A stretch of DNA of 64,000 nt from Acidobacteriota bacterium (GCA_947470805.1 CANIVU010000001.1:1-64000), one strand, 5' to 3'; positions 17,159 to 42,321 are shown, counted from the stretch's first letter. Translations and numbers: made by a program. The notes: generated by a model from the sequence alone, not told the origin.

Positions 17159-18463
17159 ATGTCAGACCAAACCTTACGTCGAGACCTGGTGAAGTCGGCC
17201 GCGGCCGCCTTTACGACGAACCTTTTCACCGGGCGCGTGTTCGGCGCGAACGACACGTTGCAGACCGCATTTATCGGCATGGGCCGGATGGGTCTGGGCA
17301 ACCTGAACGCCGCGATGAAGCAGGACAAACTGCACGTGGCGGCGGTGTGCGATATCTATCAGCCGGCGCTGGACAACGCGGTGGACAAGACCAAGGCGCA
17401 GGCGACGGGCGCGGCGCGGGCGGTGAAGGATTTCCGGGAGATTCTGGCGGATAAATCCATTGACGCCGTTTGCATTTCGACGCCGGACCACTGGCATCCG
17501 TACATGGCCGTGGAGGCTTGTAAGGCTGGTAAGGACGTTTATGTTGAGAAGCCGATCAGCGTGACGATCGGCGACGGGTACAAGATGGTGCAGGCGGCGC
17601 GGAAGTATAACCGCGTGGTGCAGGCCGGGACGATGCAGCGGTCGGCGAAGCATTTTATCGATGCTTGCGAGCTGGTGCGGCAGGGGCGCGTGGGCGATGT
17701 GACGATGGTGAAGACTTGGAACTACGGGAATGGGAAGGTGGAGGGAATCGGGAATCCGGCGAACGGGAAGCCGCCCGCCGATTTGGATTGGGATATGTGG
17801 TTGGGGCCGGCGCCGAAGCAGGAGTTCAATAAGAACAAGTGGGGCGTGGATCCGAAGGCGTTTTCGCACTTCCGTTGGTTCTGGGATTTTGCGGGCGGGA
17901 TGATGACCGATTGGGGCGTGCACGTTCTGGACATTGCGCGCATGGGCATGGGCGAGGCGATGCCGAAGGCCGTGTCGGCGATGGGGCAGAAGTTTTTGAT
18001 TCAGGACAACCGGGATACGCCGGATACGCTGTCGGCCATCTACGAGTTTCCGAAGTTCATGGCGCAGTATGAGAACCGGATGTTCAACGCGAATTCGATG
18101 TTCAAGCAGGGCTATGGGACGATGTTCCACGGGACGAAGGGGACGCTGTTTGTGGACCGCTCGCTGTACCGGATTGTGCCGGAGGCGGGGTCGGAATCGA
18201 TGGAAGTGGTGGAGGAGAAGGCGTCCGATAACTCGAACGTGAAGCACTGGGCGAACTTCCTGGAATGTATCAAGACGCGGCAGCGGCCGGCGGCGGATAT
18301 TGAGATTTGTTATAAGTCGACGGTAACTTGTTTGTTGGCGAATATCTCGATTCAATCCAAGCAGCGCGTGGATTGGGACGAGGCGAATAACCGCATTGCG
18401 CAGCCGGAGTTGCGGAAGTATATGAGCCGTCCGGAACGCGCGCCGTGGAAGATTGTGGTGTAA
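17159..18463 (+). CDS. Gfo/Idh/MocA family oxidoreductase with Tat-like signal
   Basis: 434 residues. The N-terminus QTLRRDLVKSAAAAFTTN carries a twin-arginine pattern. It is followed by the NAD(P)-binding fold (TAFIGMGRMGLGNLNAAM), STPDHWHPYMAVEACKAGK and the family hallmark DVYVEKPIS. The C-terminal alpha/beta substrate domain includes KTWNYGNGK and WDFAGGMMTDWGVHVLD. Members oxidise or reduce sugars and inositols; exported ones can keep a tightly bound cofactor. TAGAAT lies 12 nt before the ATG. The PQQ-propeller gene follows after only 4 nt, so the gene heads an operon-like set of four. The substrate cannot be told. Confidence 0.88.
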   Translation: MSDQTLRRDLVKSAAAAFTTNLFTGRVFGANDTLQTAFIGMGRMGLGNLNAAMKQDKLHVAAVCDIYQPALDNAVDKTKAQATGAARAVKDFREILADKSIDAVCISTPDHWHPYMAVEACKAGKDVYVEKPISVTIGDGYKMVQAARKYNRVVQAGTMQRSAKHFIDACELVRQGRVGDVTMVKTWNYGNGKVEGIGNPANGKPPADLDWDMWLGPAPKQEFNKNKWGVDPKAFSHFRWFWDFAGGMMTDWGVHVLDIARMGMGEAMPKAVSAMGQKFLIQDNRDTPDTLSAIYEFPKFMAQYENRMFNANSMFKQGYGTMFHGTKGTLFVDRSLYRIVPEAGSESMEVVEEKASDNSNVKHWANFLECIKTRQRPAADIEICYKSTVTCLLANISIQSKQRVDWDEANNRIAQPELRKYMSRPERAPWKIVV

Positions 18464-26085: not shown

Positions 26086-26136
26086 GGTTCTATTTTGTCT
26101 TGTCACGGAATCCGATGCGATTGCATCGGGATTAGT

Positions 26137-27603
26137 ATGCGGTCAGTATTGGTTGTTTTCGCGGTTGGGATGGCTTGGGGACAGCAGAAGTTGTTTGAGC
26201 CGGCGGAGACCTGTGCGATGTGCCACACGAAGATTCCGGCACCTGCCGGGGCGAAGGCCGCGGCGGCGGTGGTGGGGGCGTTTCCGTTGTGGGCGGGATC
26301 GATGATGGCTCATGCGGGGAAGGACCCGTATTGGAAGGCCAAGGTGCAGTTCGAGGGTGACACCACGCCGGCGGCGCGGGCGGTGATTGAGGACAAGTGC
26401 ATGCGGTGCCATGCGCCGATGCAGCAGTATCCGCTGCGGGCGAAGGGGGAGTTGGCACGGATGGGAGCGTTGAACCCCGAAGGGGCCGAGGGGGTGAGTT
26501 GTACGGTGTGCCACAAGATTGTCCCGGAGGGGTTGGGAGAGCGGGCGTCGTTTACGGGCGGGTTCAAGATTAATACGGAGAATGAGATTTACGGACCGCA
26601 TAAGGATCCGTTCCCGATGCCGATGATGCATCATGCGGAGCAGTTTCCGAAGGAGGGGCGGCAGATTTTGGACTCGGCGCTGTGCGGGAGTTGCCATACG
26701 GTGATTACGCCGACGCTCAATGCGGCGGGGAAGCAGATTGGCGAGTTTGTGGAGCAGGCACCGTATTTGGAGTGGCTGGCGAGCGATTTCAAGAAGAGCA
26801 ATGTGACTTGTCAGAGTTGTCATCTGCCGGTGTTGAAAGATGCCAACGGGGCGCAGGTGGAGCAGTACATTGCGCACATGCCGCATATGGGCGCGGGGTT
26901 CTTTCCGCCGACGCGGCCGCGGAAGCCGTTTGGGCAGCACTTGTTTTTAGGTGGGAATGCGCAGATGTTGCGGGTGATGGGTGTGGAGACGGCCGGGCGG
27001 GCGGAGGAGTTTTTGCGGGGGGCAGTGGCGCTGGAGGTTAGGGGGCGGGTTGAGAAGGGTGTTTCGGAATTGGCGGTGGAGGTGTTCAACAAGACCGGGC
27101 ATAAGCTGCCGACGGGGTTTCCGAGCCGGCGGATGTGGCTGCATGTGCGTGTGAAGGATGCGGGCGGGGCGGTGGTGTTTGAGAGTGGGGCTTGGGATGC
27201 CGTCTCGGGCGAATTGGTGGGGGCGGCGGCGCGGCAGGAGCATCGGGACCGGATTACGCGGGGTTCGGAAGTTGCGGTGTATGAGGCGGCGATGAAGACG
27301 CCGGATGGCGCGCCGACGATGTCGTTGCTGCGGGCGGCGGGGTATTCAAAAGACAACCGCATTTTGCCGTTGGGGTTTGTTTCGAACGCGCAGATTGCTC
27401 CGGTGGGGGTGGCGGCGGACGCGGACTTTAAGGCCGGGTCGGACAAGGTTCATTATTCGGTTCCGGTTGGCGGACCGGTGACGGTGACGGTGGAGGCGCT
27501 GTACCAGAGCGTGGCGCCGGCTCACTTGGAAGGGTTGGCCTTTCAGATGACGGGGCATCGGGCGCCGGTGGTGATGTCCTCATTGGAGCGCGTGATTCGA
27601 TAA
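26137..27603 (+). CDS. Secreted pentaheme c-type cytochrome
   Basis: 488 residues from the ATG at 26137, chosen because it yields a signal peptide (MRSVLVVFAVGMAWG); the open frame extends 636 nt further upstream only as antisense of the oxidoreductase gene. Five CxxCH heme motifs are present: CAMCH, CMRCH, CTVCH, CGSCH and CQSCH, all within the first about 240 residues. The spacing resembles cytochrome c554/NrfA-related multiheme folds. The C-terminal half is heme-free, beta-rich and contains EVFNKTGHKLPTGFPSRRM, a histidine-containing motif seen in similar cytochromes. It is probably a periplasmic electron carrier or oxidoreductase. It lies 9 nt upstream of the SGNH-DUF1080 gene. Confidence 0.88.
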   Translation: MRSVLVVFAVGMAWGQQKLFEPAETCAMCHTKIPAPAGAKAAAAVVGAFPLWAGSMMAHAGKDPYWKAKVQFEGDTTPAARAVIEDKCMRCHAPMQQYPLRAKGELARMGALNPEGAEGVSCTVCHKIVPEGLGERASFTGGFKINTENEIYGPHKDPFPMPMMHHAEQFPKEGRQILDSALCGSCHTVITPTLNAAGKQIGEFVEQAPYLEWLASDFKKSNVTCQSCHLPVLKDANGAQVEQYIAHMPHMGAGFFPPTRPRKPFGQHLFLGGNAQMLRVMGVETAGRAEEFLRGAVALEVRGRVEKGVSELAVEVFNKTGHKLPTGFPSRRMWLHVRVKDAGGAVVFESGAWDAVSGELVGAAARQEHRDRITRGSEVAVYEAAMKTPDGAPTMSLLRAAGYSKDNRILPLGFVSNAQIAPVGVAADADFKAGSDKVHYSVPVGGPVTVTVEALYQSVAPAHLEGLAFQMTGHRAPVVMSSLERVIR

Positions 27604-27612: not shown

Positions 27613-29427
27613 ATGCAAATTCGTTACGCCGCACTGTTGCTGGCCGGGCTGATGCCGGCGCAGGATTTTCATTTGAAGGACGGGGACCGGGTTGTCTTCT
27701 TTGGAGACAGCATTACGGACCAGCGGCTGTACACGACGTTTGCGGAGACCTTTGCGGTGACGCGGTTCCCGAAGCGGAACATCAGCTTCGTCCATTCGGG
27801 GTGGGGCGGGGACCGGGTGACGGGCGGCGCGGGCGGCGGCATTCAGGAGCGGCTGACGCGGGATGTGTTTGCGTATAAGCCGACGGTGATGACGATCATG
27901 CTGGGCATGAACGACGGGCGCGTGCGGGCGTTCGATGCACAGCTGTTCGATATGTATTCGAAGGGGTACCGGGATATTGTCAAGCGCGTGAAGGAGGCCG
28001 ATGGGGCGACGCGGATTACGGCGATTCAGCCTTCGCCTTATGACGACGTTACCTACGAGCCGCGGTTCGCGGGCGGGTATAACGGGGTGCTGTTGAAGTA
28101 TTCGGACTTTGTGAAAGAGCTGGGGACGGCGCAGGGGTTGACGGTGGCGGATTTGAACCGGCCGGTGACGGCGATGTTGGCACGGGCGAAGGCGGCGGAT
28201 GCGACGCTATCGCAGAAGATTATTCCGGATCGGGTGCATCCGGGAGCGTCGGGCCATTTGATTATGGCGGCGGCGCTGTTGCGGGCGTGGAATGCGCCGG
28301 CGGTGGTGAGTTCCGTGACGATTGACGCGAAGGCGAAGCGGGTGACGAAGTATGAGAGTGCGTCTGTTGTGAACGTCGGGTTTGGCGCGGGGGCGGCGTG
28401 GACGCAGACCGACGATGCGCTACCGATGCCGGTGGATATGCGGGATCCGCTGATTGCGCTGGCGGTGAAATCGTCTGATTTCGTGGAGACGTTGAACCAG
28501 CAGGTGGTGAAGGTGCAGGGGTTGGCGGCGGGTCCTTACACGTTGCGGATTGATGGGTCGGAAGTGGTGACCAAGACCGCGGCGGAGTGGGCTGCGGGCG
28601 TGAACGTGGCGATGTTGCAGACGCCGATGTGGGAGCAGGCGATGCGGGTGCATTCGCTGACGATCAAGCACACGGGCGTGCATCAGGCGCGGTGGCGGAC
28701 GTTGCAGGTACCGTTGCAGAGCGACGTGCAGGAGACGATGGCGGAGGGGATGGCGGCGTTGGACAAGGTGGAAGCGGAGTTGGTGGCCAAGCAGCGGGCG
28801 ATGGCGATGCCGAAGCCGCACCGGTTTGAGCTGGTGCCGGGTGGGAGTGGGTTTAAAAGCGTGTTTACTGGTTCGGATCTGAGCGGGTGGCACATCAGCC
28901 AGGTGAACCATCACGGGAAGACGAGCGGGTGGGTGGTGGATAAGCAAGCCATTACGGGGACGCAGGATAAGCCGGGGCATGGAGGCATTCTGCTGACGGA
29001 TAAGAAGTATAAGAACTTTGAGATTAGTCTGGAGATCAACCCGGATTACGGGTGCGATAGCGGGTTGTTCCTGCGGGCGAGCGAGAAGGGCGAGGCGTAC
29101 CAGGTGTTGTTGGACTACCTGGATGGCGGGGCGGTTGGCGGGGTTTACGGGGAACGTTTGAAGGACGTGAAGACTTTCGTGCCGGTGTGGCAGGAGTGGT
29201 TTAAGCGCGGGGATTGGAATCAACTGCGGGCGCGGATTGAGGGGGACACGCCGCATATTCAGGTGTGGATGAACGGGATTAAGATCACCGATTGGACCGA
29301 CACGGCGAACCATGCGGCGGGCGGGGCGACCGACGGGATGGTAGCCGTGCAGGTGCATGCGGGGAACCGTTGGGTGCCGGGCGGGAAGCACCGGTTCCGG
29401 AACGTAACAATTCGCGAACTGCCGTAG
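27613..29427 (+). CDS. Secreted SGNH hydrolase fused to DUF1080 (3-keto-glycoside hydrolase/lyase-like) domain
   Basis: 604 residues with a signal peptide. Residues about 20-225 are an SGNH/GDSL esterase: VVFFGDSITDQRL (nucleophile Ser), HSGWGGDRVTGG (Gly block), IMLGMNDGR (Asn block) and DRVHPGASGHLIM (catalytic Asp-His). A central beta region (about 230-400) follows. Residues about 410-604 are a DUF1080 jelly-roll: FTGSDLSGWHISQVNHHGK, DYGCDSGLFLRASEKGEAYQ and GDWNQLRARIEGD. DUF1080 proteins act on 3-keto-glycosides. The fusion suggests deacylation plus cleavage of a modified glycan outside the cytoplasm. It is followed by the Oar-like receptor gene after 54 nt. Confidence 0.88.
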   Translation: MQIRYAALLLAGLMPAQDFHLKDGDRVVFFGDSITDQRLYTTFAETFAVTRFPKRNISFVHSGWGGDRVTGGAGGGIQERLTRDVFAYKPTVMTIMLGMNDGRVRAFDAQLFDMYSKGYRDIVKRVKEADGATRITAIQPSPYDDVTYEPRFAGGYNGVLLKYSDFVKELGTAQGLTVADLNRPVTAMLARAKAADATLSQKIIPDRVHPGASGHLIMAAALLRAWNAPAVVSSVTIDAKAKRVTKYESASVVNVGFGAGAAWTQTDDALPMPVDMRDPLIALAVKSSDFVETLNQQVVKVQGLAAGPYTLRIDGSEVVTKTAAEWAAGVNVAMLQTPMWEQAMRVHSLTIKHTGVHQARWRTLQVPLQSDVQETMAEGMAALDKVEAELVAKQRAMAMPKPHRFELVPGGSGFKSVFTGSDLSGWHISQVNHHGKTSGWVVDKQAITGTQDKPGHGGILLTDKKYKNFEISLEINPDYGCDSGLFLRASEKGEAYQVLLDYLDGGAVGGVYGERLKDVKTFVPVWQEWFKRGDWNQLRARIEGDTPHIQVWMNGIKITDWTDTANHAAGGATDGMVAVQVHAGNRWVPGGKHRFRNVTIRELP

Positions 29428-29481
29428 GGGGGGTCAAAGGCGTTACCATGGAAACAATCCATCCTCAGGGGGTTGTTATTC

Positions 29482-32400
29482 ATGCGTACTGCTTTGCGCG
29501 CACCTTCCCTGCTCCTCGTTGCGAGCTTGGGACTTTTTTGCCAGACCTCGACTACTCAGTTGAGCGGCACGGTTTCTGATACGACTTCCGCGTCTGTTCC
29601 GGGCGCTAATGTGACGGCCACGAACGAGGCCACGGGCCTGAAATACTCCGTTGTGACGACGGAGGCGGGGCTGTATGCGTTTCCTTCGATTCCGGTGGGG
29701 GCGTACACGCTGTCGGTCGATAAGACTGGATTTAAGAAATTCCAGCTGACGAAGATTGTGTTGCAGATCAATACACCGGCGACGGTGAACGCCAAGTTGG
29801 ATATTGGCGCGGCGACGGAAACCGTGCAGGTGGAGGCAACGGCCGAGACGCTGCAGACGAACAACGCGACGATTGGCAACGTTATTGAACGCAAGGTGAT
29901 TGAGGCGATGCCGCTGAACGGGCGGAACCCGCTGAACCTGCTGATTTACGAGCCGGGCGTGGTGCAGCGGAGCGGGAACCAGGTGAGCGTGAATGGTTCG
30001 CGCACGGGCGCGGGCAACGTCACCATTGACGGTATTGAGGCGAACGAGAGCACCAATCCGAACCCGACGCAGAACATCTTCCGGTTGAATCCGGACAACG
30101 TGCAGGAGTTTAAAGTTACGACGCAGAACCCGTCGGCCGACGAAGGGCGCAACTCGGGCGCGAACGTTTCGGTGGCGACGCGGAGCGGCACGAACCAGTT
30201 CCACGGGACGGCGTTTGAGTTCTTCCGGAATACGGCGCTGAACGCGAACGAATTTTATTCGAACGCGCAGGGGCAGCCGAAGGCGATTATCAAGCTGAAC
30301 CAGTATGGGTTTGAGTTTGGCGGGCCGATCAAGAAGAACAAGACCTTCTTCTTTGGATCGTGGCAGGGGCAGAAGGTGAACTTCGCCGATCCGATTGATA
30401 AGTCGTTCGGTACGGTGTCGCTGTATCAACCGTCGGCGCTGAGCGGTATCTTCAAGTACTTTGTGGTGGATAACCGCAACCCGCTGGTGGTGAATGGACA
30501 ACGGGTTACGCAGAACACGCCGATTCTGTTGAATGGACCGGGTGGCGGCTATGCGGCGGGTGTTCGCGATTGCGCGAGCCCGACGGACGCCAACTGCGTG
30601 CAGAGCTACAACATTTTCGCGAATGATCCGTTGCGGCGCGGGCTTGATTCCGCAGTTAAGAGCGTTTTAGGTGGGTATCCGGCGCCGAATTCGCTGAATG
30701 GCGGCGATGGGCTGAACGTTGGGAATTTCCAATGGAATTCGCCGTTCCAGATTCGCGGGCCGCAGTACCTGGCGCGTATTGACCACGTGATCAACGATAA
30801 GCACAACCTGTTCGGCCGCTACCTGGGCGCTGAGCAGACGACGCTGAACGGCGATCCGTTGAACTCGCGTCCGATCGTGCTGCCGGGCTATCCGGCGCGC
30901 GGCGAAGTGTACCGGCCGGCGACGAATATCGCGGTTGGCCTGCGCAGCGTTTTGTCTCCTCGGTTGGTGAACGAATTGACGCTCGGCTTTTCACGGTTCG
31001 ACTTCCTGTTCACGCAGGGCGAGGCGAATCCGGCGTTCCCGAATGCGCCGCGCTTCACGTTCAACAACTCCGATGTGGACTACATCGCCGGGCCGCGCAC
31101 GCGGCGCGTGGTGAACACGTACCAGATCATCAACAACCTGACCTACGTAACCGGCGCGCACGTGCTGAAGTTCGGCGGCAACATCCGCATGTATCAGCAC
31201 AACGACCAGCGCGGCGATGTGGGCGGTGTGTCGTTGACGCCGGCGATTTCGCTGTCGCGGGCGACGCGGCCTCCGGCCGGGTTCAATCTGCCTGCGCTGG
31301 CTACGGCCACGACGCCTGGCATTGCGACGAACGACTTGAACCGGCTGCAGGGCATGATCAACGATCTGATCGGCATTCCGGCGACGTTGTCGCACAACTT
31401 CCTGGGCGACCTGAAATCCGATACGTTTGCGCCGTTTTTGACGGGGCCGAAATCGGTGAGCCTGTGGGCGCAGGGGCAGCGCACGAAGCAGTACAACTTC
31501 TTCTTCCAGGATGAATGGAAGCTGAAGCGGAACCTGACGATGAGCATTGGCGCGCGCTGGGAATTGAACCCGCCTCCGAGCGAAGCCGGCGGGCGTGTTT
31601 ATGTACCGAACAAGGACATCAGCGGCAGCCAGGGTCTGGTGAGTTTTGTGAAGGCCGACCGGTGGTTCCAGAACAACAACGCCGGTGCGGTGGCACCGCG
31701 TTTGAGCTTTGCGTGGTCGCCGGGTGGTTCGACGAAGACCGTGATCCGGACGGGCTACGGATTGGCGTTTGATCCGGTTGCGACGTTCCAGGTGACCTCG
31801 GTTGCCTCGGCAGTGCCGGGGCAGGTGTATCGCTGCACGGCGGTGGTTTCGCCGCAGGCGACGACGAGCGGCTGCGGCAATGCGCCGGACGTTCGTTTGA
31901 GCGCGTTCCCCAACGAACTGCCGGCGCCGACGGCGAAGCCTTCGAGCCAGTTGACGCCTCCCGTGTCGCTACAGACTACGGCGGCGACGGCGCGCGTGTT
32001 CGACCAGAACCTGAAGTTGCCGACGGTGCACATGTGGAACTTCACGGTGCAGCGTGAATTTGGCCGTGGCTATGTGACGAGCGTTGGGTATGTGGGCCGG
32101 CGCGGCACGCGGTTGTGGCGCAGCTGGGACACGAACCAGATCGACGCAGGTCCGATGTTGCCGAGCTTCATCGCGATGCAGCGCAATATCGCGATCGGCG
32201 GCGGATGCCGCGCGGATGGCACGCTGGCGAACAACACCGCTTGCAACGGAGCGGTTCAGGTGCCGTGGATTCAGTCGGGCATCATCACACCGGCGTTTGC
32301 GAATTCGGCGGCTTCGACGACCGATCTATCGCCGACGGCGAATGCGGCAGGCAACATGGCGCTGCGCTTGGAGCAGAACACGCTGGCCGCGAAGCTGCGT

Positions 32401-33279
32401 CCGAATCAGCAGTTCGCTCAGATCCTGATGCTGGACAACGGCGCGGATTCGAACTACCACGCGCTGCAGACTTCGCTGCACAAGCGGTTTGACTCGGCGG
32501 GCCTGCTGTTCGGCGGGAGCTACACGCTGGGCAAGTCGATCGATAACCTGTCGGTTGACCCGGTGGCGGCGACGACCGGTGGCGGCTTGACGACCACGGC
32601 GGCGCGTACGCCGGTGGATGGGCGCAATTACCAGAACGAGAAGGCGCGCAGCGACTACGACCAGCGGCATGTGATCAACATGACCGGTGTGTATGAACTG
32701 CCGTTTGGCAAGGGCAAGTCGCTGTTTGGGAATGCCAACAAGGCAGTGAACACGGTGATTGGCGGGTGGAGCCTGAACGGGATCTACACGTATCAATCCG
32801 GTGAACCGTTCTCGGTTCGCTCCGGGTTCCTGACGGCGAATGGCACGGCGCAGAGCCGCGCGGCGCTGGCGCCGGGCGTGACGAAGTTGCCTGAGGCAAA
32901 ACTGCAGAGCAAGGCGGGCGTAACGGGTCCGGTGTTCTTCCAGGATGCGTCGATGTTCGCCAATCCGGGACCGGGGCAATTGGGCCTGGGCCGCAACATC
33001 TTCCAGGGCCCATCGTTCTGGAACCTGGACATGGGCATTGCGAAGGGCTTCCAGTTGGCGGAGAAGGTGCGGCTGACGTTCCGTGCGGAAACGTTCAACA
33101 CGCTGAACCATGCCAACTTCCGGAATCCGCGCGACGCCTCTGTAGGGTCGCCGGCGATCAACTCGGCGGTATTCGGGCAGGCTTGCTGCGTGACGCTGTC
33201 GACGACCAGTTCGGCCAACACGAACCAGAACGGCGAGAGCTGGCGCGTGGTGCAGTTGGCGCTGAAGCTGGCGTTTTAG
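29482..33279 (+). CDS. Oar-like TonB-dependent outer-membrane receptor
   Basis: 1,265 residues from the ATG at 29482, which has AGGGGG 9 nt upstream; a TTG three codons earlier is also in frame. A signal peptide (RAPSLLLVASLGLFC) is followed by a carboxypeptidase-regulatory-like beta-sandwich (about 27-110: LSGTVSDTTSASVPGANVTA, AGLYAFPSIPVGAYTLSV). Then comes the plug (VIEAMPLNGRNPLNLLIYEP, VNGSRTGAGNVTIDGIEANE) and a long beta-barrel ending RVVQLALKLAF with a terminal aromatic residue. This is the dominant outer-membrane receptor type of Acidobacteria and probably imports oligosaccharides. Its codon use is richer in GGC, AAC and CGC than its neighbours, as in highly expressed genes. An intrinsic terminator follows. 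Confidence 0.95.
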   Translation: MRTALRAPSLLLVASLGLFCQTSTTQLSGTVSDTTSASVPGANVTATNEATGLKYSVVTTEAGLYAFPSIPVGAYTLSVDKTGFKKFQLTKIVLQINTPATVNAKLDIGAATETVQVEATAETLQTNNATIGNVIERKVIEAMPLNGRNPLNLLIYEPGVVQRSGNQVSVNGSRTGAGNVTIDGIEANESTNPNPTQNIFRLNPDNVQEFKVTTQNPSADEGRNSGANVSVATRSGTNQFHGTAFEFFRNTALNANEFYSNAQGQPKAIIKLNQYGFEFGGPIKKNKTFFFGSWQGQKVNFADPIDKSFGTVSLYQPSALSGIFKYFVVDNRNPLVVNGQRVTQNTPILLNGPGGGYAAGVRDCASPTDANCVQSYNIFANDPLRRGLDSAVKSVLGGYPAPNSLNGGDGLNVGNFQWNSPFQIRGPQYLARIDHVINDKHNLFGRYLGAEQTTLNGDPLNSRPIVLPGYPARGEVYRPATNIAVGLRSVLSPRLVNELTLGFSRFDFLFTQGEANPAFPNAPRFTFNNSDVDYIAGPRTRRVVNTYQIINNLTYVTGAHVLKFGGNIRMYQHNDQRGDVGGVSLTPAISLSRATRPPAGFNLPALATATTPGIATNDLNRLQGMINDLIGIPATLSHNFLGDLKSDTFAPFLTGPKSVSLWAQGQRTKQYNFFFQDEWKLKRNLTMSIGARWELNPPPSEAGGRVYVPNKDISGSQGLVSFVKADRWFQNNNAGAVAPRLSFAWSPGGSTKTVIRTGYGLAFDPVATFQVTSVASAVPGQVYRCTAVVSPQATTSGCGNAPDVRLSAFPNELPAPTAKPSSQLTPPVSLQTTAATARVFDQNLKLPTVHMWNFTVQREFGRGYVTSVGYVGRRGTRLWRSWDTNQIDAGPMLPSFIAMQRNIAIGGGCRADGTLANNTACNGAVQVPWIQSGIITPAFANSAASTTDLSPTANAAGNMALRLEQNTLAAKLRPNQQFAQILMLDNGADSNYHALQTSLHKRFDSAGLLFGGSYTLGKSIDNLSVDPVAATTGGGLTTTAARTPVDGRNYQNEKARSDYDQRHVINMTGVYELPFGKGKSLFGNANKAVNTVIGGWSLNGIYTYQSGEPFSVRSGFLTANGTAQSRAALAPGVTKLPEAKLQSKAGVTGPVFFQDASMFANPGPGQLGLGRNIFQGPSFWNLDMGIAKGFQLAEKVRLTFRAETFNTLNHANFRNPRDASVGSPAINSAVFGQACCVTLSTTSSANTNQNGESWRVVQLALKLAF

Positions 33280-33296
33280 TTCGTTGCTTGTTTGAG

Positions 33297-33335
33297 AAAG
33301 CGCCGTGGCTTCGGTCACGGCGCTTTTCTTTTTTG
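33297..33335. terminator. Bidirectional rho-independent terminator
   Basis: A perfect 11-bp stem (AAAGCGCCGTG at 33297-33307 and CACGGCGCTTT at 33316-33326, 8-nt loop) followed by TCTTTTTT. It lies between the convergent receptor gene and the minus-strand secreted-protein gene and is best suited to the plus-strand transcript. Confidence 0.92.
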
Positions 33336-33340
33336 GGGGG

Positions 33341-35167
33341 CTATTTCTTCTTCTCTTCGTCGAAGAGGCGTTCGTAGTCTTCCCAGTGGGCGGCCATGAT
33401 CCGCACCTTGCGGCGCAGCTGTTTGGCGAGATCGGGGCCGAGGACGCGGATGCTTTCGTCGCCTTGTGTTTTCGCGGTGTCGATGAGCACGTCTTTGTTC
33501 GCTTCCAGGAGTTCGGCGAGGACGATACTCGAATCCATTTCGCGGCGGGCTACTTCTTTGATGGCGCGCCATTCGGTGATGTCGGTGAGGTGTTGTTGGA
33601 ACTCGATGGGGCGTTTCAGGCGGCCGCCTTTCATGAAGTCGAGCAGGTATTGATACTGCAACGCGTTGCGGCAGTTCTCGACCAGGATTTCGAAGACTTG
33701 GATGCGTTTGTCGAGGAGCGGCATGTTCCTGATGCGTTGGAGATCCAGGCGCGCGCGTGCGAGGTCTACCTTCATGCGCATGAGCAACTGGCCGGAGACG
33801 GCCATGCCGCCGAGGCCTTCGTACTGGCGTGTTCCCTGGATGTCGCCGAGGTCTCGCGCGCGATCCTCGCCGCGGGCCTGGAAGAGGAAGGGCCGGTAGT
33901 AGGAGATTTCGTCATCGGTCAGCTCCGCCGGGAACGGCACGAAGGGACGCGTGAGCCAGCGCTGATGCACGGAGGCGATGTAGAACAACGTGCCGCCGAA
34001 GTTCAGGATGTCGCAATCGCGCTGGACGCGCTGCAGGGCCATCCAGGCGTCGACCATGGCGCCGGCGTTGGCTTCGCCCACGCGGGCCACTGCGATGGCG
34101 CGGAGCAACTGCATGCGGCTGGTGTCGTCTGTTGTGGGCTTCTTCTGAAAGGCGTTGTAGATCTGGAAGTAGAGGTCGGTATCGTAGCGGTCGCCGATCA
34201 AGTAGAACAGGCGCGGGGCGCGGCTGCGGGAGGCCTCTTCGAGCTCTTCGAGGTAGCGCACGGGGAGCGGGAGACCGAGGGCCGGATAGAAGGGGTAGAA
34301 GTAGTCGAGCAGGAAACCGACATCGGCTTTGTAGACGGTCGCGTTGGGGCCTTCGAGGTTGGCTACCGCCATACCGGGGCCGAGCTTGCCGGCAACGAGT
34401 TCCGGGGCGGGTTCACGGACCCACTCGGCGTCGATTTCGAGCGGACCAGGGCGGGCTTCTGCCGCGCCGGTTTGGAGCGCGCCGAAGAAGTCGCGATAGC
34501 GCTCGTGCATGTTGCGATCCTTGCCGATGGCGCTGCCGTTGGGCCCTTGATAGAGGCCCTGGCTCCAGCTCATGCCGGAGCCGGAATCATTCGTGTGGAG
34601 CGAGAGGATTTCGATTTCGGGACAGACGGCGAGGAGCTTCCGGATGGACTCGCGGTAGAGGGCGAGGACCTCCGGGTTGTCGATGGACGGCGCGAAGCGC
34701 GGCACGCGGGAGCGGAGCGGATGATCGACTTGGGGACCGCGCCAGAGGGGGTGCGCGGTGTAGACGGCCTCCGGGAGGATCTGCGGTTCGAACGTCGTGA
34801 ACGCGGCTTTGAGGCCCAGTTTGCGGAGTACTTCGCAGCGTTCGCGCAAGAGGCCGATCACCGTATTGGAGTAGGCTTTGGGGAAGAAGGGCTGGAGTGC
34901 GTCGGGGATGGAGACCTTGAGCAGGCCGACGTTCGAGACGGCCCAGGCGGGGTAGGGATCGCCGGGCGTGTCCATCTGCCACATGGCCCAGGGGAGGTCT
35001 TCAGCGGTGATGACGATATGCGTCGCGCCGGACTCTTTCGCCTGGCGCGCGAAGGTGGTGAAGCTTTCCAAGGAATCCGAATGGCGGCCGAAGATGACCT
35101 TCCTGAACTGGCCCGCTACGCCCATCGACGTCAACAACAGCCCGCACAACAGCCATGCCAATCGCAT
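33341..35167 (-). CDS. Secreted protein, possibly glycosidase-like TIM barrel
   Basis: 608 residues with a signal peptide (MRLAWLLCGLLLTSMGVAG). The next stretch reads SFTTFARQAKESGATHIVIT, then PEVLALYRESIRKLLAVCPE and EILSLHTNDSGSGMSWSQ. This alternation of helices and strands with Asp/Asn/Ser-rich loops is what a (beta/alpha)8 sugar-binding barrel would show. The C-terminal third is helical and charged. I do not recognise the family. It is the last gene of a five-gene minus-strand run, 66 nt from the dehydratase gene, which supports a role in carbohydrate use. It is probably periplasmic. Confidence 0.65.
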   Translation of the reverse strand: MRLAWLLCGLLLTSMGVAGQFRKVIFGRHSDSLESFTTFARQAKESGATHIVITAEDLPWAMWQMDTPGDPYPAWAVSNVGLLKVSIPDALQPFFPKAYSNTVIGLLRERCEVLRKLGLKAAFTTFEPQILPEAVYTAHPLWRGPQVDHPLRSRVPRFAPSIDNPEVLALYRESIRKLLAVCPEIEILSLHTNDSGSGMSWSQGLYQGPNGSAIGKDRNMHERYRDFFGALQTGAAEARPGPLEIDAEWVREPAPELVAGKLGPGMAVANLEGPNATVYKADVGFLLDYFYPFYPALGLPLPVRYLEELEEASRSRAPRLFYLIGDRYDTDLYFQIYNAFQKKPTTDDTSRMQLLRAIAVARVGEANAGAMVDAWMALQRVQRDCDILNFGGTLFYIASVHQRWLTRPFVPFPAELTDDEISYYRPFLFQARGEDRARDLGDIQGTRQYEGLGGMAVSGQLLMRMKVDLARARLDLQRIRNMPLLDKRIQVFEILVENCRNALQYQYLLDFMKGGRLKRPIEFQQHLTDITEWRAIKEVARREMDSSIVLAELLEANKDVLIDTAKTQGDESIRVLGPDLAKQLRRKVRIMAAHWEDYERLFDEEKKK

Positions 35168-35233
35168 AACCAGTTCGCCTCTGCCTACAGACTACTCCCG
35201 GAGAGGCTGAACGGGAAGGCCCCGTGTTGGGGC

Positions 35234-36472
35234 CTAGCCCCACCAGGTTTCGCCGGGGGCGAGGTTCTTCTTGGCCACGTCGGGATTGATTTCCAGGCCG
35301 AGCCCGGGCTTGTCACGGATGGTCAAATAGCCGTCCTTGATGATGGGGCCGTCGATGATGACGAGGTCCTGCCACCAGTCGATGTACTTGGCGAGTTCGT
35401 GGACGCGGAAGTCGCGCATGGAGGCGGCGGCGTGGCAAGAAGCCATGGTGCCGATGGGGCTGGCCGGGTTGTGCGCGGCGGTGGCGATGAAGGAGTTTTC
35501 GGCGATGTCGTGGATGCGTTTCGATTCCAGCAGGCCGCCGGATTTGGGGATATCGAGGTGGACGATGTCGCAACCCTGCATATCGATGAGGCGGCGGAAT
35601 TCGCTGCGCGTATAGAGATTTTCGCCGGTGCAGATGGGAACGTTGACGGCGTGGGTGACGCGGGCCATGGCGTCGACGTTGCCGGGGGGAACCGGGTCTT
35701 CAAGCCACATGGGATTGACCGATTCGATGGCCTGGGCCATTTTGATGGCGTCGCGGACATCGTACTTCCAGTGGGCTTCGACACCGAAGTCAGCATCGGG
35801 GCCGAGTTCGGCGCGGACGGTTTCCATGGCCTTGGCGATGCGGCGGAGATCCTTGAGGGTGAGGCCGCGGGTGTAGCGATCGTGGCCGGGTTCCTTGTAA
35901 TCGGGATCGGCTTTGGGCGGGATGCCATCGCCCTGAAACTTGTAGGCGGTCCAACCGAACTTTTCGGCCTTTGTCTCCTGGACGAGGGCTTTCCAGGCGC
36001 CCATATCTTCGACGTTGGCAGGGGCTTGAGTGGTGCGGTAGAAGCGGACTTTATCGCGGAAGCGGCCGCCGAGGAGATTGCAGCTGGGGGTTTCGAGGAT
36101 GCGGCCGGCGAGATCCCAGAGGGCGATTTCGATGCCGCTGGCGGCGGTGACGGTGACGCCGCTTTGGGCGCCGGCGCCGGCGGTGAGCATGAGCATCTTG
36201 TGATAGAGCTTGTCGACGTTGAGCGGGTCCTCGCCGATGATGTGCTGCTTGAGCAGGCGGAGGACAATGTCCTTGACGCCGGGGCCCCAGTAGGCTTCGC
36301 CGATGCCGGAGATGCCGGCGTCGGTTTCGATCTTGATGAGGTTCCAATCCCAGGTGCCGCGGACGATCATGCACTTGACGTCGGTGATTTTGATCTTGCC
36401 TTTGTGGGCGGCTGAGAGGGTGGAAAATGTCGTCGCGCCGAGGGCGGCGGAGAGGAACGAACGGCGATTCAT
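35234..36472 (-). CDS. Mandelate racemase/muconate lactonizing enzyme family sugar-acid dehydratase, Tat-exported
   Basis: 412 residues. A twin-arginine signal (MNRRSFLSAALGATTFSTL) precedes an enolase-superfamily enzyme. The capping domain holds TDAGISGIGEAYWGPG and SGIEIALWDLAGRILETPS. The barrel has metal ligands in DFGVEAHWKYDV, WLEDPVPPGN and ICTGENLYTR, followed by DIVHLDIPKSGGL and the general acid/base region ATAAHNPASPIGTMAS. The pattern is near D-galactonate/mannonate dehydratases. Export of such an enzyme is unusual. It lies 26 nt downstream of the SseB-like gene in the GMC-dehydrogenase run, so it may act on a sugar acid made there. Confidence 0.88.
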   Translation of the reverse strand: MNRRSFLSAALGATTFSTLSAAHKGKIKITDVKCMIVRGTWDWNLIKIETDAGISGIGEAYWGPGVKDIVLRLLKQHIIGEDPLNVDKLYHKMLMLTAGAGAQSGVTVTAASGIEIALWDLAGRILETPSCNLLGGRFRDKVRFYRTTQAPANVEDMGAWKALVQETKAEKFGWTAYKFQGDGIPPKADPDYKEPGHDRYTRGLTLKDLRRIAKAMETVRAELGPDADFGVEAHWKYDVRDAIKMAQAIESVNPMWLEDPVPPGNVDAMARVTHAVNVPICTGENLYTRSEFRRLIDMQGCDIVHLDIPKSGGLLESKRIHDIAENSFIATAAHNPASPIGTMASCHAAASMRDFRVHELAKYIDWWQDLVIIDGPIIKDGYLTIRDKPGLGLEINPDVAKKNLAPGETWWG

Positions 36473-36498
36473 GTCCTCGTCAGTTTATGCCATTTGCC

Positions 36499-37260
36499 CT
36501 ACGCCCCGGCTACGACGCGCGGGAACAGAAACGATGGCAGGACGACGGTACCGGGGCAGAAGGGATTGAGGACGAGGCCTGTGACCGCGAAGTTCTGTAA
36601 CTGGGCGAAGAGCGAGTGACCGGGGAGGGTGACGGTGGAAGTGCCGGCGCGCTGTTCGGCAGTGAGTCTTTTGGTGGAGAGCTCGAAGCGATCGGGCGAG
36701 GTGAAGGCGATGGCGCAGACGCCTTCGTAACCGTTGACGGTGGTGGTGGCCGGCGCGCTGTTGGCGGCGTTGATGGCGATCATAAAGCCTGGATGATCGC
36801 GGAGTTGTGCGAACGGAATTTCGGAATCGGTGGCGCCAGCGAGAGCCTGTTCGAGACGGACAACCTGGGAGACAAGCTTGCAGAGGCCGAAGGCGCCGCT
36901 GTCGAGGTAGAAGGTGAGTTCGCGCTGGGAGCCGGGATTGACGTTGACGCGATCGAATTGCGATTCATTGAGGGCGTCGAAGATGGCGGCTCCGCGCAGG
37001 GCGCCAGAGAACGCTCCGAGCGGCTGGCCGGAGGCGCGGTGGACCGCGTCGCCGTCGGTAAACAGCGACAGTTCGCGGGGATTGCCGATGAATTCCGTGC
37101 TGAGAATGATGGTGTGATCGGCGACGGCAACACCAAGATTGTCCGCAGCGAAGAGCATAGGCACGTACCAGCCATCGCTTTCCGCCATGGCGCGAAGGAC
37201 GGCCATGCTGGAGATTTCTTCGCGTGAGTAGGCGAGCAACGCTTCATCGACGGCGTTCAT
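36499..37260 (-). CDS. Hypothetical protein, weakly SseB-like
   Basis: 253 residues, no signal peptide or membrane segment. The N-terminal part ([20 protein letters not shown], then [15 protein letters not shown]) and the later [17 protein letters not shown] resemble the SseB N-terminal domain of secretion-enhancing or immunity-like proteins, but the match is from memory and weak. Its start overlaps the stop of the GMC oxidoreductase gene by 4 nt (ATGA), so the two are translationally coupled. The coupling suggests a role tied to that dehydrogenase, such as assembly or regulation. Confidence 0.6.
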
Positions 37261-38837
37261 AGATTGCCCTTCTTCGCCTCTTCCGCGAGATGTTCGGAGG
37301 CGCGCATGGAGAGGGCGAGGATGGTCATTGTTGGGTTCTGCCAGCCACCGGTGACGAAGGCACTGCCATCGACAACGAACAGGTTATTGATGTCGTGGCT
37401 TTGGTTCCATTTATTGAGGACGCTCTTCTTCGGGTCGTCGCCCATGCGGCAGGTGCCGAGTTCGTGGATGCTGTAGCCGGGCGGGTTGACCTTATCGCTC
37501 TTCACCAGGATTTCGAAGCCACAGGCTTTGTAGAGCTCCTCCATCGTGTCGGCGGCATCCTTGCAGAGGTTTCGTTCGTTTTCGCCGTAGCGGGCTTCGA
37601 TGTGGAGCGTGGGGATGCCCCAGGCGTCCTGCTGCGATTTGTTGATGCGAACGTGGTTTTCGTAGCGGGGGAGGACCTCACCGTAGATGCCGCCAGTGAT
37701 GCAGGCGCCGGCGTAACTGTCGAGTTTTGATTGCAGCGCGGGGCCGTATTCGGGGAAGTACTTTGCATCCGGCGTGGAGCCTGTGCCCATTGGCAGGCAG
37801 TATCCGCCGCGGAAGTTGCGTTTCTCATCTTTGCCGAGGTTGCGGAAGCGGGGCATGAAGAGGCCGCCGCCGATGAGGGCGGGGTTGGCCTTGCCATCGC
37901 GGGCTTCGGGCATGGCGGCGACAACGGTGCAGCCGTAGAGTTGATCGATGAGATAGTGACCGATGAGGCCGCTGGAGTTGGCGATGCCGGAGTTAAGAAG
38001 GAGACGCGTGGATTCGAGCGTGCCGGCGGCGAGGATGACGACGCGGGCGCTGGCGTGCATTTCGCGGTGGGTGTGACGGTCCAAGAAGTGAACGCCGGTG
38101 GCGCGGCCGGTGTCCTTGTCGACGGTGACGTCGCGGACAACGGCGTTGGGAACGATGTCGAGTTTACCGGTGGCGAGGGCACTGTGGATGGAAAGATTGA
38201 GCGAACTGGCGAGGCCGTTTTCACCAAGCGCGGCGCGCATGCGGGAGACCGGAATCCCCATTTTGTTGGCCGCGGCGGTCATGCGTTTTTGGCATTCGCT
38301 GTCGGTGCCTTCAACGCCCGCGGTGAAGTTGCCATCGGGGAATTGCGGCCAGCCTTCCTTGCGGCCGACGACGCGAAACTGCTGTTCGACGCGAGAGTAA
38401 TAGGGATCGAGATCGGCGAGAGAAACGGGCCAATTGTCGCCGGCGCCGCCGGGGTAGTTGGCGGCTTTGAACTCGAAGTCACTGAGTCGGAAAGACTGGC
38501 GGGCCCAGAAGAGGGAGCGGCCACCGAGGAGGCGCACGCGGACCCAATTGTAGGGCGCGTCGGGGGCGTGGGTGTAGGGGATTTCCTTTTCGTTGACCCA
38601 GGTGTTGGCGTTGAATTCGTTGGCCTGGAAGACGTGATCGAGATGGGCGTTGGGATTGCCGAAGCCACGGTAGGGGAGTTCGTGGGTTGGCTTGAAGACG
38701 CGGTCCTTTTCAAGGTCGGGGACCGGGCCGGCGTTGAGCATGAGAACGCGCAAACCCTTCTGCGTGAGGACGCCGGCAGCCATGCCGCCGGAGTGGCCGG
38801 AGCCAACGATGAGGACGTCGTAGATTTGTTTGGGCAT
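37257..38837 (-). CDS. GMC-family FAD sugar dehydrogenase, large subunit
   Basis: 526 residues. The flavin-binding motif [19 protein letters not shown] is at the N-terminus. GMC features follow: [38 protein letters not shown], the catalytic region [14 protein letters not shown] with the active His, and [20 protein letters not shown] with the partner Asn. There is no export signal of its own; the gene upstream encodes a Gluconate_2-dh3 subunit with a Tat signal, so the pair is probably exported together, as in gluconate 2-dehydrogenase and glucoside 3-dehydrogenases. The family oxidises sugars or sugar acids and passes electrons to a quinone or cytochrome. 6 nt separate the two genes. Confidence 0.92.
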
Positions 38838-38843
38838 GGGGGA

Positions 38844-39422
38844 TTACCGTGTGGGATCGATGGGGAGCCAGTAGGGCGCGGGGCCGCCGGGGCCGCGGCG
38901 GCGGCGATTGGTGGTGGCGGCGACCTGGCTCATTTCCTTTGAGTTTTGGGTGGCGGTGCGGACGTCGGCGCGGACGTCGGCGAGGAAGCGTTGGTGCGGG
39001 TTGGAGGGAGGGTCGAAGGTCCAGGGGACGAGGAGGGGGCGGAGGATCTTGTCGGCCTGATCGGCAGTGATTTCATTGAACGGTTTTTTGAAGAGGCGGC
39101 GGGACTCGGTTTCGAGATGATCGAGGCCGGAGCGGTAGAGGGTTTGGCGGGGCTTGGGGGAGGCACCAATGAGGAAATCGAGGAACTCGGCGGCGCCGGC
39201 TTCGATGGCGCCGGGGCGTCCGTTGGCCGCGGGTTGGAGCAGGGCGCTGAGAGACTTGAGAGTCGCAAACTGGGTGGCGGTGAAGAATCGGGTAGTGGGA
39301 TCGGCTGCTGCTTCCGGTGCAATTGTGGTGATCTTGGCGGGGGCTGGCGCTTGTTGGGCGGAGATCGTTCCGGCAGCGGCGGTGGCCGTGGTGACGGCCT
39401 GGACAAATCGGCGGCGTTGCAT
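38844..39422 (-). CDS. Gluconate 2-dehydrogenase subunit 3 family protein (Tat signal)
   Basis: 192 residues. The N-terminus MQRRRFVQAVTTATAAAGT is a twin-arginine signal. The body matches Gluconate_2-dh3: FFTATQFATLKSLSALLQPA, then GAAEFLDFLIGASPKPR, SRRLFKKPFNEITADQADKI and the end GGPAPYWLPIDPTR. This small subunit escorts a GMC-type FAD subunit across the membrane and stabilises it; the FAD subunit is the next gene. It is the first gene of the minus-strand run 39422 to 33341. It is divergent from the PhoD-like gene with 47 nt between the starts. Confidence 0.9.
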   Translation of the reverse strand: MQRRRFVQAVTTATAAAGTISAQQAPAPAKITTIAPEAAADPTTRFFTATQFATLKSLSALLQPAANGRPGAIEAGAAEFLDFLIGASPKPRQTLYRSGLDHLETESRRLFKKPFNEITADQADKILRPLLVPWTFDPPSNPHQRFLADVRADVRTATQNSKEMSQVAATTNRRRRGPGGPAPYWLPIDPTR

Positions 39423-39469: not shown

Positions 39470-41017
39470 ATGACGCGACGAGATTGGATCGGCATCGGGC
39501 TGGCGGCGGGGGTGGACGGGGCTCCGTTGACGGGGTTGCGGCATCTGTTGCCGGCGGCTACGCATGAGCGATTTCTGATTAAGGCGTCGTATCACGCGCC
39601 GGTCCGGAAGACGCCGGAGTTGCGTGTGGGCGACCGGCGGGTGATGGGACAGAGAACGGACTCCGACGGGCAGTTTTGGCTATTCGACGTGCCGGGGTTG
39701 CGACCGGACACCGCGTATTCATTGCGTTTGGATGGCGGGGAACCTTGGACGCTGCGGACGTTTGCACCGCCCGATGCGACGGTGGAGCAGTTTCGGCTGT
39801 TGGTGTATACGTGCGCCGGCGGGCATGACGCGATGACGATTGAGGGGACGCAGAACCCTTACTGGGTGAGCATTCCGGCGCGGCAGGCGCTCTTTACACG
39901 CGCCTTGCGCGAGAAGCCGGATGCGATGGTGGCGATTGGCGATCACGTGTATTGGGACCTGCGGTATGGGCGGGGTACGGGGCGGCTGCCGATCGGGCAA
40001 CAGCCGTGGGCGCGGGCGTTGATGGGCGATGATTTTGACCGTTCACTGCCGGTGATTGGGACGCGGAATGAAACGATCCTGAAGCGCGCGGTGGACCGGC
40101 AGATCGCGGAGTTGTATGGGACCTTGTTCCGGTCCACACCGACGCACTTCATACAGGACGACCACGACTATTTCGAGAATGACGAGGCGATTGCGACGGG
40201 GATTTCGTTTCCGCCGGATGATTTCATGATGCGGCTGGCGCGGGCCACCCAGCACTTATATTTTCCGGAACACTTGCCGAATGCGGACAGGCCGGCGGGA
40301 TTGGCGGGGGCGAGCGCCGGGGATCGGGCGAGCGGGTTGAGTGAGTGCTACGGGACGTTGCGTGTGGGCAAGCTGGCCGAGTTGTTGCTGTACGACTGCC
40401 GGCGATTTCAGACGCTGCAGGGGCCGCATGCGCGACTGGTGCCGGAGAATACGGAAGAGTGGCTGCTGCGGCGGCTGGCCAGTTCGCCGGCGCGGCATGT
40501 GGTGAATGTGCCGTCGATGCCGATTGGCTGGAGCGCGGGCAAATGGGGCGAGTGGTATCCGGATGTATTGGATGATAACGGACGGTTGGGGGTGGCGAAG
40601 GCAAAGTACTTCTGGCAGGAGGGTTGGCGGTCGCAACACGACCGATTGTTGACGGCGAGTTCGCAATCCGACCGCTTGGCGGTATTTCTAAGCGGGGATT
40701 TGCATGCGTTGGCGCATGGGGCGATCGCGCGGAATGGGCGGCTGGACCTGCGCGGGAATCCGGTGCATTCGGTGTTGACCGGACCGGTTTCGACGGGGCC
40801 GCGCGGATGGCCATCGGCAGCGCGCGGAACGCCGCCGATGGTGGCCACGGGGTTGGAAGTGAAGGAGACGCTGGCGCCGTTGGAACACAACGGATTCACG
40901 ATCATTGATTTCACGCGCGACCGGATGGACTTCCGGATGTATTCGTGGAAGATGGGCCGCGCGGAAACCGAGATCGATGGATTGGAACCGGTGCACCGGT
41001 TTTCGTTGGCACGTTAG
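39470..41017 (+). CDS. PhoD-like metallophosphatase/phosphodiesterase, Tat-exported
   Basis: 515 residues from the ATG at 39470, which places the twin-arginine motif TRRDWIGIGLAAG at the very N-terminus and fits the -10 at 39457. An N-terminal Fn3-like domain (about 40-110) is followed by the PhoD-like catalytic domain. The visible metal-site motifs are DAMVAIGDHVYWDLRYG, HFIQDDHDYFENDE, YDCRRFQTLQGP and AVFLSGDLHALAHGA. The family hydrolyses phosphomonoesters or diesters at the cell surface with iron and calcium. The size is close to that of Bacillus PhoD. Its stop overlaps the convergent inositol-phosphate synthase gene by 4 nt. Confidence 0.88.
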   Translation: MTRRDWIGIGLAAGVDGAPLTGLRHLLPAATHERFLIKASYHAPVRKTPELRVGDRRVMGQRTDSDGQFWLFDVPGLRPDTAYSLRLDGGEPWTLRTFAPPDATVEQFRLLVYTCAGGHDAMTIEGTQNPYWVSIPARQALFTRALREKPDAMVAIGDHVYWDLRYGRGTGRLPIGQQPWARALMGDDFDRSLPVIGTRNETILKRAVDRQIAELYGTLFRSTPTHFIQDDHDYFENDEAIATGISFPPDDFMMRLARATQHLYFPEHLPNADRPAGLAGASAGDRASGLSECYGTLRVGKLAELLLYDCRRFQTLQGPHARLVPENTEEWLLRRLASSPARHVVNVPSMPIGWSAGKWGEWYPDVLDDNGRLGVAKAKYFWQEGWRSQHDRLLTASSQSDRLAVFLSGDLHALAHGAIARNGRLDLRGNPVHSVLTGPVSTGPRGWPSAARGTPPMVATGLEVKETLAPLEHNGFTIIDFTRDRMDFRMYSWKMGRAETEIDGLEPVHRFSLAR

Positions 41018-42321
41018 TCGTAGTACTCCAGACCGAGGTGCGTGATGAGGTCTTCGCCGCGCATCCAGCGGAGCGTGTTTTTCAGCTTCATTAACTGGAT
41101 GAAGATGTCGTGTTCGGGGTAGAGGCCGGGGGCGGTCATGGGGGCTTTGAAGTAGAAGCTGAGCCACTCCTGGACGCCCTTCATGCCGGCGCGGTGGGCG
41201 AGGTCGAGGAAGAGAACGAGGTCGAGTACGAGCGGGGCGGCGAGGATGGAATCACGGCAGAGAAAGTCGATCTTGATCTGCATGGGATAGCCAAGCCAGC
41301 CGAAGATGTCGATGTTGTCCCAACCTTCCTTTTCGTCGCCGCGCGGGGGGTAGTAGTTAATGCGGACGGCGTGATAGAGATCCTTGTAGAGCTCGGGGTA
41401 GAGGTTCGGTTGGAGGATCTGATCGAGGACGCTGAGCTTGGTTTCTTCCTTGGTTTTGAAGGAGCCGGGATCTTCGAGAACTTCGCCGTCGCGATTGCCA
41501 AGAATGTTCGTCGAGAACCAGCCGTTGCAGCCGAGCATACGGGCTTTGAGACCGGGGGCGAGAAGGGTCTTCATGTACGTTTGGCCGGTTTTGAAATCCT
41601 TGCCACAGACGGGGAGACTGCGATCGCGGGCGAGGCCGAGGAGGGCTGGGATGTCGTGCGTGAGATTGGGAGCACCGTTGGCAAACGGCACACCGGACAT
41701 GAGCGCGGCGTAGGCGTAGACCTGGCTGGGGGCGATGTCGGGATCGTTCTTGGCGAGCCCCTTTTCGAAGGATTCGAGGGTTTGGTGGACCTTGGCAGGC
41801 TTGTGGAATGATTCGGTGGAACCGCACCAGATCATGACGAGACGGTCGCAGCCATTCGACTTCTTGAAGGTCTGCATGTCGACCATGAGCTCTTCGGCCT
41901 TGTCGCGGAGAGAGCCCTTTGTCTTGACGTTGGGTCCGTCAATCCGCTTGACGTAGTTCTTGTCGAAAACGGCCTTCATGGGCTTGATCTTCTGCAGATT
42001 GGGCTTCACCTTGCGGAGCAGTTCGGGCTGCAACACGCGGGCGTTGGCGGCGGCTTCGTAGGCGTTGTCCTCGAAGATATCCCAGCCGCCGAACACCAAT
42101 TGGTTCAAGCCGGCCAAGGGTACAAAGTCCTTGATCTTGGGAACCCGGTTGTCGGTGCGCTTTCCGAGACGAACGGTGCCAAGCTGCGTGAGGGAACCGA
42201 CGGGCTCTCCGAGCCCCTTCTTCACGGCTTCCACACCGGCCATGAACGTGGTGGCGACAGCGCCGATGCCCGGCGTGAGAATGCCGAGTTTTCCTTTTGC
42301 AGGGGCAATTTTGATGGACAT
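41014..42321 (-). CDS. ino1: Inositol-3-phosphate synthase
   Basis: 435 residues. Converts glucose-6-phosphate to 1D-myo-inositol-3-phosphate with NAD. The N-terminal NAD-binding GILTPGIGAVATTFMAGVEA, then LVFGGWDIFEDNAYEAA, the Rossmann strand DRLVMIWCGSTESF, DHDIP-type region NLTHDIPALLG, CGKDFKTGQTYMKT (active-site Lys) and GCNGWFSTNILGNRDGEVL are all present. The C-terminal part has KIDFLCRDSILAAPLVLDLV. Length suits the bacterial/archaeal class. It would supply inositol for phospholipids or compatible solutes. No clear Shine-Dalgarno site; a 7-bp hairpin at 42326-42345 sits directly upstream of the start on this strand. Confidence 0.93.
   Translation of the reverse strand: MSIKIAPAKGKLGILTPGIGAVATTFMAGVEAVKKGLGEPVGSLTQLGTVRLGKRTDNRVPKIKDFVPLAGLNQLVFGGWDIFEDNAYEAAANARVLQPELLRKVKPNLQKIKPMKAVFDKNYVKRIDGPNVKTKGSLRDKAEELMVDMQTFKKSNGCDRLVMIWCGSTESFHKPAKVHQTLESFEKGLAKNDPDIAPSQVYAYAALMSGVPFANGAPNLTHDIPALLGLARDRSLPVCGKDFKTGQTYMKTLLAPGLKARMLGCNGWFSTNILGNRDGEVLEDPGSFKTKEETKLSVLDQILQPNLYPELYKDLYHAVRINYYPPRGDEKEGWDNIDIFGWLGYPMQIKIDFLCRDSILAAPLVLDLVLFLDLAHRAGMKGVQEWLSFYFKAPMTAPGLYPEHDIFIQLMKLKNTLRWMRGEDLITHLGLEYYD

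Follow-up and report, generated by a model that had tools for sequence, protein, structure and literature searches.

Fructose dehydrogenase (FDH) and FAD glucose dehydrogenase have an architecture that includes a small subunit and a cytochrome. These two enzymes (PDB 7w2j and 6a2u) are the best solved relatives of the GMC flavodehydrogenase described below, but they are distant (phmmer scores of 114 and 84 bits). A periplasmic precedent for a dehydrogenase that is accompanied by an exported DUF1080 protein is the Caulobacter lactose 3-dehydrogenase LacABC with CCNA_01705 (PMC9007349). DUF1080 is termed a 3-keto-disaccharide hydrolase domain, but not all members act on keto-sugars, one exception being the endo-xanthanase/lichenase THTE_1561 (PMC9007349). 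Canonical gene sets are annotated on a Hymenobacter volaticus plasmid (GMC, Gluconate_2-dh3, permease, Gfo, isomerases, cytochrome and DUF1080) and on a plasmid of Xanthomonas sacchari, which carries a GMC/DUF1080 set. Related sets without DUF1080 are found in Pantoea, Rhizobium and Ketogulonicigenium, and these resemble the GlycDH operon of A. tumefaciens (PMC10628242).

The window, i.e. the whole stretch of DNA analyzed here, takes up the opening 64 kb of contig C1 from a Bryobacteraceae-like acidobacterium whose genome (G000) comprises 8.7 Mb in 220 contigs. Relatives of this genome include Bryobacteraceae MAGs. An earlier note on this DNA proposed a single extracytoplasmic pathway in which a GMC enzyme oxidizes glycosides at C3, a DUF1080 protein cleaves the product, a dehydratase processes it further and a receptor imports what is formed. 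The genes named for this pathway (SGNH plus DUF1080, Oar-like receptor, MR_MLE, GMC, Gluconate_2-dh3 and Gfo/Idh) are all present where the note had placed them. Four further features did not figure in it: a five-haem cytochrome, a terminator-like hairpin, an SseB gene and a gene here termed GHx.

The plus-strand unit begins with a c-type cytochrome displaying five CxxCH motifs and weak cytochrome c7/c554 matches (about 26134-27603, the exact start being uncertain). It ends 10 bp before the gene for a 604-amino-acid SGNH hydrolase fused to a DUF1080 domain, with a Sec-type signal (27613-29427; PF06439 E 3.9e-27, PF13472 E 1.1e-18). An Oar-like TonB-dependent receptor with OMP_b-brl_4 and CarboxypepD_reg domain matches follows (29473-33279). 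The minus-strand unit reads, in order of transcription, Gluconate_2-dh3 small subunit with a Tat-type signal (38844-39422), GMC large subunit without a signal peptide of its own (37257-38837), SseB-domain protein (36499-37260, overlapping the GMC stop codon), a mandelate-racemase-family, acid-sugar dehydratase-like MR_MLE protein with a Tat-type signal, here termed MR (35234-36472), and GHx, of 608 amino acids with a Sec-type signal (33341-35167). These genes are co-directional and tightly packed: neighbors either overlap by 4 bp or stand less than 70 bp apart. A strong terminator-like hairpin of 14 pairs (33296-33327) sits between the receptor and GHx stop codons, and the stretch is thus divided into two convergent units. 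A search of the stretch for promoter-like sites found none. A myo-inositol-1-phosphate synthase gene (41014-42321, minus strand) adjoins the set.

Export was judged from N-terminal sequences. On this basis the dehydrogenase, the cleavage-type protein and the dehydratase all appear to be exported, as the earlier note had held. That such a layout would be unusual does not apply to its core, since the published LacABC and CCNA_01705 (PMC9007349) already represent an extracytoplasmic dehydrogenase-plus-DUF1080 arrangement; what would be new is an exported dehydratase beside it. Both LacABC and the window present a multi-component periplasmic-type dehydrogenase with an exported DUF1080 protein nearby, export being predicted in the window. 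Unlike LacABC, however, the window shows no cytochrome subunit gene adjacent to the dehydrogenase, and its DUF1080 domain is fused to SGNH and encoded in a separate convergent unit.

The GMC large subunit adjoins a Tat-signalled Gluconate_2-dh3, as in periplasmic glycoside 3-dehydrogenases of the LacABC/G3DH type. The phylogeny of the GMC protein does not support its placement in that type. In a maximum-likelihood tree (Caulobacter LacA is not in it, and a frameshifted plasmid GMC of Spirosoma is unreliably placed) the window GMC falls in an acidobacterial clade of its own with support of 100/100. It lies outside a clade (100/99) that unites the GMCs of DUF1080 operons, DUF6379/xylose-isomerase operons and sugar-isomerase/ABC operons with a GMC from contig C55 of the window genome. 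It is the C55 protein that is closer to the Hymenobacter GMC (42% identity vs 36% for the window GMC), and a canonical DUF1080 query finds no match in the window. The window clade is nevertheless sister (91/91) to the DUF1080-operon/GlycDH-like clade, which holds the canonical GMCs, and the protein families correspond to those of LacABC plus DUF1080 (PMC9007349) and of the Hymenobacter and Xanthomonas sacchari operons. With these operons the window has in common a GMC with its Gluconate_2-dh3 small subunit and a nearby DUF1080, but it differs in the clade of its GMC, in the missing Fe-S loop of that protein and in the lack of adjacent Gfo and isomerase genes.

The active-site His and Asn are retained in the window GMC. 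No GMC sampled from the window clade has the cysteine loop associated with an Fe-S center, whereas the loop is present in FDH, in GMCs of DUF1080 operons and in the GMCs of contigs C55, C154 and C11 of the same genome. The canonical GMCs sampled, among which Caulobacter LacA itself was not compared, thus carry the loop, and neither the loop nor the Fe-S cysteines of FDH are found in the window protein. GlycDH-like GMCs also lack the loop, yet they adjoin genes of the C3-pathway type; its absence therefore argues against electron transfer of the LacABC type but not against C3 oxidation as such. Taken with the clade position of the GMC and the division into separate convergent units, these data make the single C3-oxidation pathway quite improbable.

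At seven loci of the window clade, including contig C31 of the window genome, the GMC gene is followed immediately by a cytochrome c7-like gene; those whose haem motifs were counted display five each. Runs of Gluconate_2-dh3, GMC and five-haem c7-like cytochrome from this Fe-S-less clade are found at L098 8764-9252, L088 6697-7194, L107 9029-9739, L109 and L111-L113. No cytochrome c gene is present within the minus-strand unit of the window, and the five-haem cytochrome belongs to the plus-strand unit, at a distance of about 11 kb. The ancestral unit may have consisted of Gluconate_2-dh3, GMC and a pentahaem cytochrome, with the window lineage having lost the cytochrome gene and gained MR.

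The plus-strand SGNH-DUF1080 protein matches PF06439 over the full length of the model (1-187 of 187; 95.9 bits vs a cut-off of 26.8). Its orthologues in congeners are about 70% identical, and in several of these they follow genes for an AP_endonuc_2 (xylose-isomerase-like) protein and a Gfo/Idh oxidoreductase, which do resemble 3-keto-glycoside components. In the window the SGNH-DUF1080 gene lies only near the divergent GMC. The congener locus (L103 5820-14027, with equivalents at L094, L096, L101, L102 and L116) contains AP_endonuc_2, Gfo/Idh and, in most cases, a 254-amino-acid protein of no assigned function, and it adjoins DAHP synthase and CTP synthase. It is the likelier 3-keto-glycoside locus. 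An orthologue of the congener Gfo gene was sought in the window genome and none was found, the best match being 33% identical. The window does encode a Tat-signalled Gfo/Idh protein (17159-18463, plus strand), which the earlier note had drawn into the pathway. The gene exists, but it was rejected as a member of the set, as it lies 10 kb away in a neighborhood of PQQ/PSD1/DUF1501 type; its best NCBIfam match is BT_2158_fam (139 bits vs a cut-off of 750).

The MR protein has both MR_MLE_N and MR_MLE_C domains, and its closest PDB sequence is 2qq6. By the residue roles general to the enolase superfamily, the apparent catalytic residues E232, H234, E258, E284, D307, H334 and E359, which align with metal ligands and catalytic bases, are present, and the apparent set is complete for the metal ligands and the His-Asp dyad; Glu replaces Asp as the first ligand, as it does in most orthologues. 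Among NCBIfam models MR scores best with galactonate, ManD and gluconate/galactonate dehydratases, but no equivalog cut-off is reached (best 187.8 bits vs 311). It is thus like acid-sugar dehydratases (2qq6, galactonate dehydratase, ManD) in domains and apparent residue set and differs from them in the Tat-type signal and the Glu first ligand. The twin-arginine motif is conserved in all aligned orthologues, and export is therefore probably a stable trait.

GHx matches no model in Pfam or NCBIfam, and a search of PDB sequences with its relative L115 gave no credible match. A weak PADLOC match to a Csm2-like protein (E 3e-4) was taken as spurious. The AlphaFold2 model of GHx is confident (pLDDT 89.6, pTM 0.88) and displays a TIM barrel with a helical C-terminal part, a fold resembling those of GH20, GH138, GH84, GH89 and GH67. 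Foldseek gives E 4e-11 against GH138, and VIA Z scores range from 13.8 to 15.3, with 15.3 for GH20C and 14.9 for GH138. GH138 BP0997, GH20C, GH84, GH89 and GH67 share the fold but only 6-10% identity and no sequence-family match; a fold match alone does not establish function, and it leaves room for fold families beyond those listed. D194 is among the residues invariant over 33 GHx sequences. GHx is thus a candidate for a glycoside hydrolase family that Pfam and NCBIfam leave unclassified.

A scan of GTDB genomes yielded 36 GHx relatives (L120-L155), in Bryobacterales, Bacteroidota, Rhodothermia, Glassbacteria, Planctomycetota, Gemmatimonadales and other taxa. Those of Gracilimonas and Rhodothermia are situated among rhamnogalacturonan/pectin lyases, GH28, GH88 and glucuronoyl esterase. 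In Bacteroidales the relatives adjoin GH88, and the one in genome G037 adjoins GH106, and the pectin-type families near these four groups comprise PL4, PL10, Pel9A-like, PcRGLX, GH28, GH88 and GH106. Pectin-gene matches were obtained at 5 of 38 GHx loci and at none of 54 control loci, a difference that is descriptive because the queries were taken from GHx loci themselves. GHx would most likely be a glycosidase that acts on pectin. It could be supposed that the minus-strand unit serves pectin or uronate use: rhamnogalacturonan-type glycans would yield a neutral sugar or a uronic acid through GHx, the GMC would oxidize this product, and the dehydratase would act on the aldonate or aldarate. The resemblance of the fold to the RG-II enzyme GH138 and to GH20, GH84 and GH67 is in agreement with this, as are the dehydratase models that MR matches best. 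However, no pectin genes were found at the loci of the closest GHx orthologues, GHx is missing from the locus in two congeneric genomes (below) and MR stays under every equivalog cut-off. This use of the unit is doubtful and, on balance, unlikely.

Neighborhoods of orthologues were compared across related genomes (G-numbered). The arrangement is kept only in G004 and G014, which belong to the same genus (84-97% GMC identity), and partly in G010. G004 and G014 also keep unrelated flanking genes (PhoD, inositol-phosphate synthase, DAO, NHL and DUF1501), and their synteny was rejected as proof of a pathway, as these neighbors are equally conserved. Since the locus lacks GHx in both G004 and G014, and lacks MR in G010, the minus-strand unit itself is not stable; SseB is also absent in G014, where MR directly follows GMC at a distance of 1-2 bp, a tighter association than the DUF1080-GMC proximity. 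The GMC and Gluconate_2-dh3 pair occurs without an adjacent DUF1080 or an orthologous MR in G001, G017, G058, G025, G070, G047 and G039, and SGNH-DUF1080 is found without the GMC pair in other genomes. Elsewhere the GMC pair, SGNH-DUF1080, MR and GHx each have different neighbors: MR orthologues (67-78% identity) have no conserved neighbor in common, and GHx relatives are located elsewhere. This lack of conserved linkage likewise speaks against a single C3 pathway.

The window genome is rich in these families: DUF1080 is matched 37 times, MR_MLE 51 times and a single Gfo query 53 times. From the genome counts, roughly 7-8% of Gluconate_2-dh3 genes would be expected to have a DUF1080 gene no more than about 10 kb away. 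With such a copy number and expectation, proximity of DUF1080 and GMC is by itself weak evidence. One Gluconate_2-dh3 gene of this genome (C9:122800-123135) has no GMC match listed on the same contig. The high copy numbers, the independent wandering of each gene, the loss of MR in G010 and the variability of GHx and SseB would all fit a mere coincidence in which not even the minus-strand genes share a function. Against this, those genes are co-directional and packed, and all of them save SseB appear to be extracytoplasmic. Coincidence is accordingly regarded as a somewhat unlikely explanation, and a recurrence of the combination at a second locus also tells against it.

This second locus is on contig C154 of the window genome (L161 1743-7574) and consists of Gluconate_2-dh3 and GMC, a convergent DUF1080 and two MR genes. 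The same families are similarly spaced at G003:C10, G008:C36 and G017:C1; the locus is conserved and non-orthologous to the window set. In five genomes, DUF1080 and MR (among the matches listed) both lie within 12 kb of Gluconate_2-dh3 at 5 of 40 loci vs 0.25 expected; among the matches listed, one of these five is the window, and the other four look like orthologues of a single locus. As the GMC pair, DUF1080 and MR recur in this way, the combination may be functional, with a genuine functional link between GMC, DUF1080 and MR. The recurrence also lends something to the C3 proposal, of which a weaker functional association of the three is the possible remainder. The C154-type locus is a better candidate than the window for a combined pathway. 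One of its MR-family proteins (L161 3041-4117, minus strand) has lost several metal-binding acids and may serve the adjacently encoded MR as a partner without catalytic activity.

The best reading of the stretch is a lineage-local set of genes for extracytoplasmic oxidation of sugars and sugar acids, among which C3 chemistry may or may not figure. That the window holds two independent extracytoplasmic sugar-processing units, and not one 3-keto-glycoside pathway, is considered probable by a slight lean. The minus-strand unit would be a periplasmic flavodehydrogenase of a Bryobacterales type, its GMC subunit exported by way of the Tat-signalled Gluconate_2-dh3 and its electrons passing to a multihaem c-type cytochrome and not through an Fe-S center. 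To this unit the window lineage would have added an acid-sugar dehydratase that is exported by Tat and encoded in the same direction, as well as, in some strains, GHx. The substrate would most likely be a sugar or a uronic acid set free outside the cytoplasm; its oxidation, probably at C1, would give an aldonate or aldarate, and dehydration of the latter a 2-keto-3-deoxy acid. Oxidation at C1 is a guess, because the closest solved relatives, fructose and glucose dehydrogenases, are distant; export, electron route, substrate and regiochemistry are all features that we infer. SGNH-DUF1080 and the receptor would make up a system of their own; in congeners its usual partners are Gfo/Idh and the xylose-isomerase-like enzyme. 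A more elaborate form has the minus-strand unit operating wholly outside the cytoplasm: GHx, as a new GH family, would free an acidic sugar from pectin-type glycans, the Fe-S-less GMC would oxidize it via a multihaem cytochrome, and the Tat-exported dehydratase would form the 2-keto-3-deoxy acid before uptake. So complete a scheme must be considered a long shot.

Glycan routes that oxidize and then cleave are a current topic, and one is easily called wherever GMC, Gluconate_2-dh3 and DUF1080 genes cluster. Phylogeny, cofactor motif and synteny together offer a means of distinguishing C3 dehydrogenases of the canonical kind from look-alikes among the acidobacteria, whose genomes hold greatly expanded sets of these families. 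Of the leads obtained, GHx ranks first: it may represent an unclassified family of glycoside hydrolases, has a rhamnogalacturonan context and is also found in Bacteroidota, Planctomycetota and other phyla. It is followed by the clade of GMC proteins without an Fe-S loop, which are often paired with pentahaem cytochromes.
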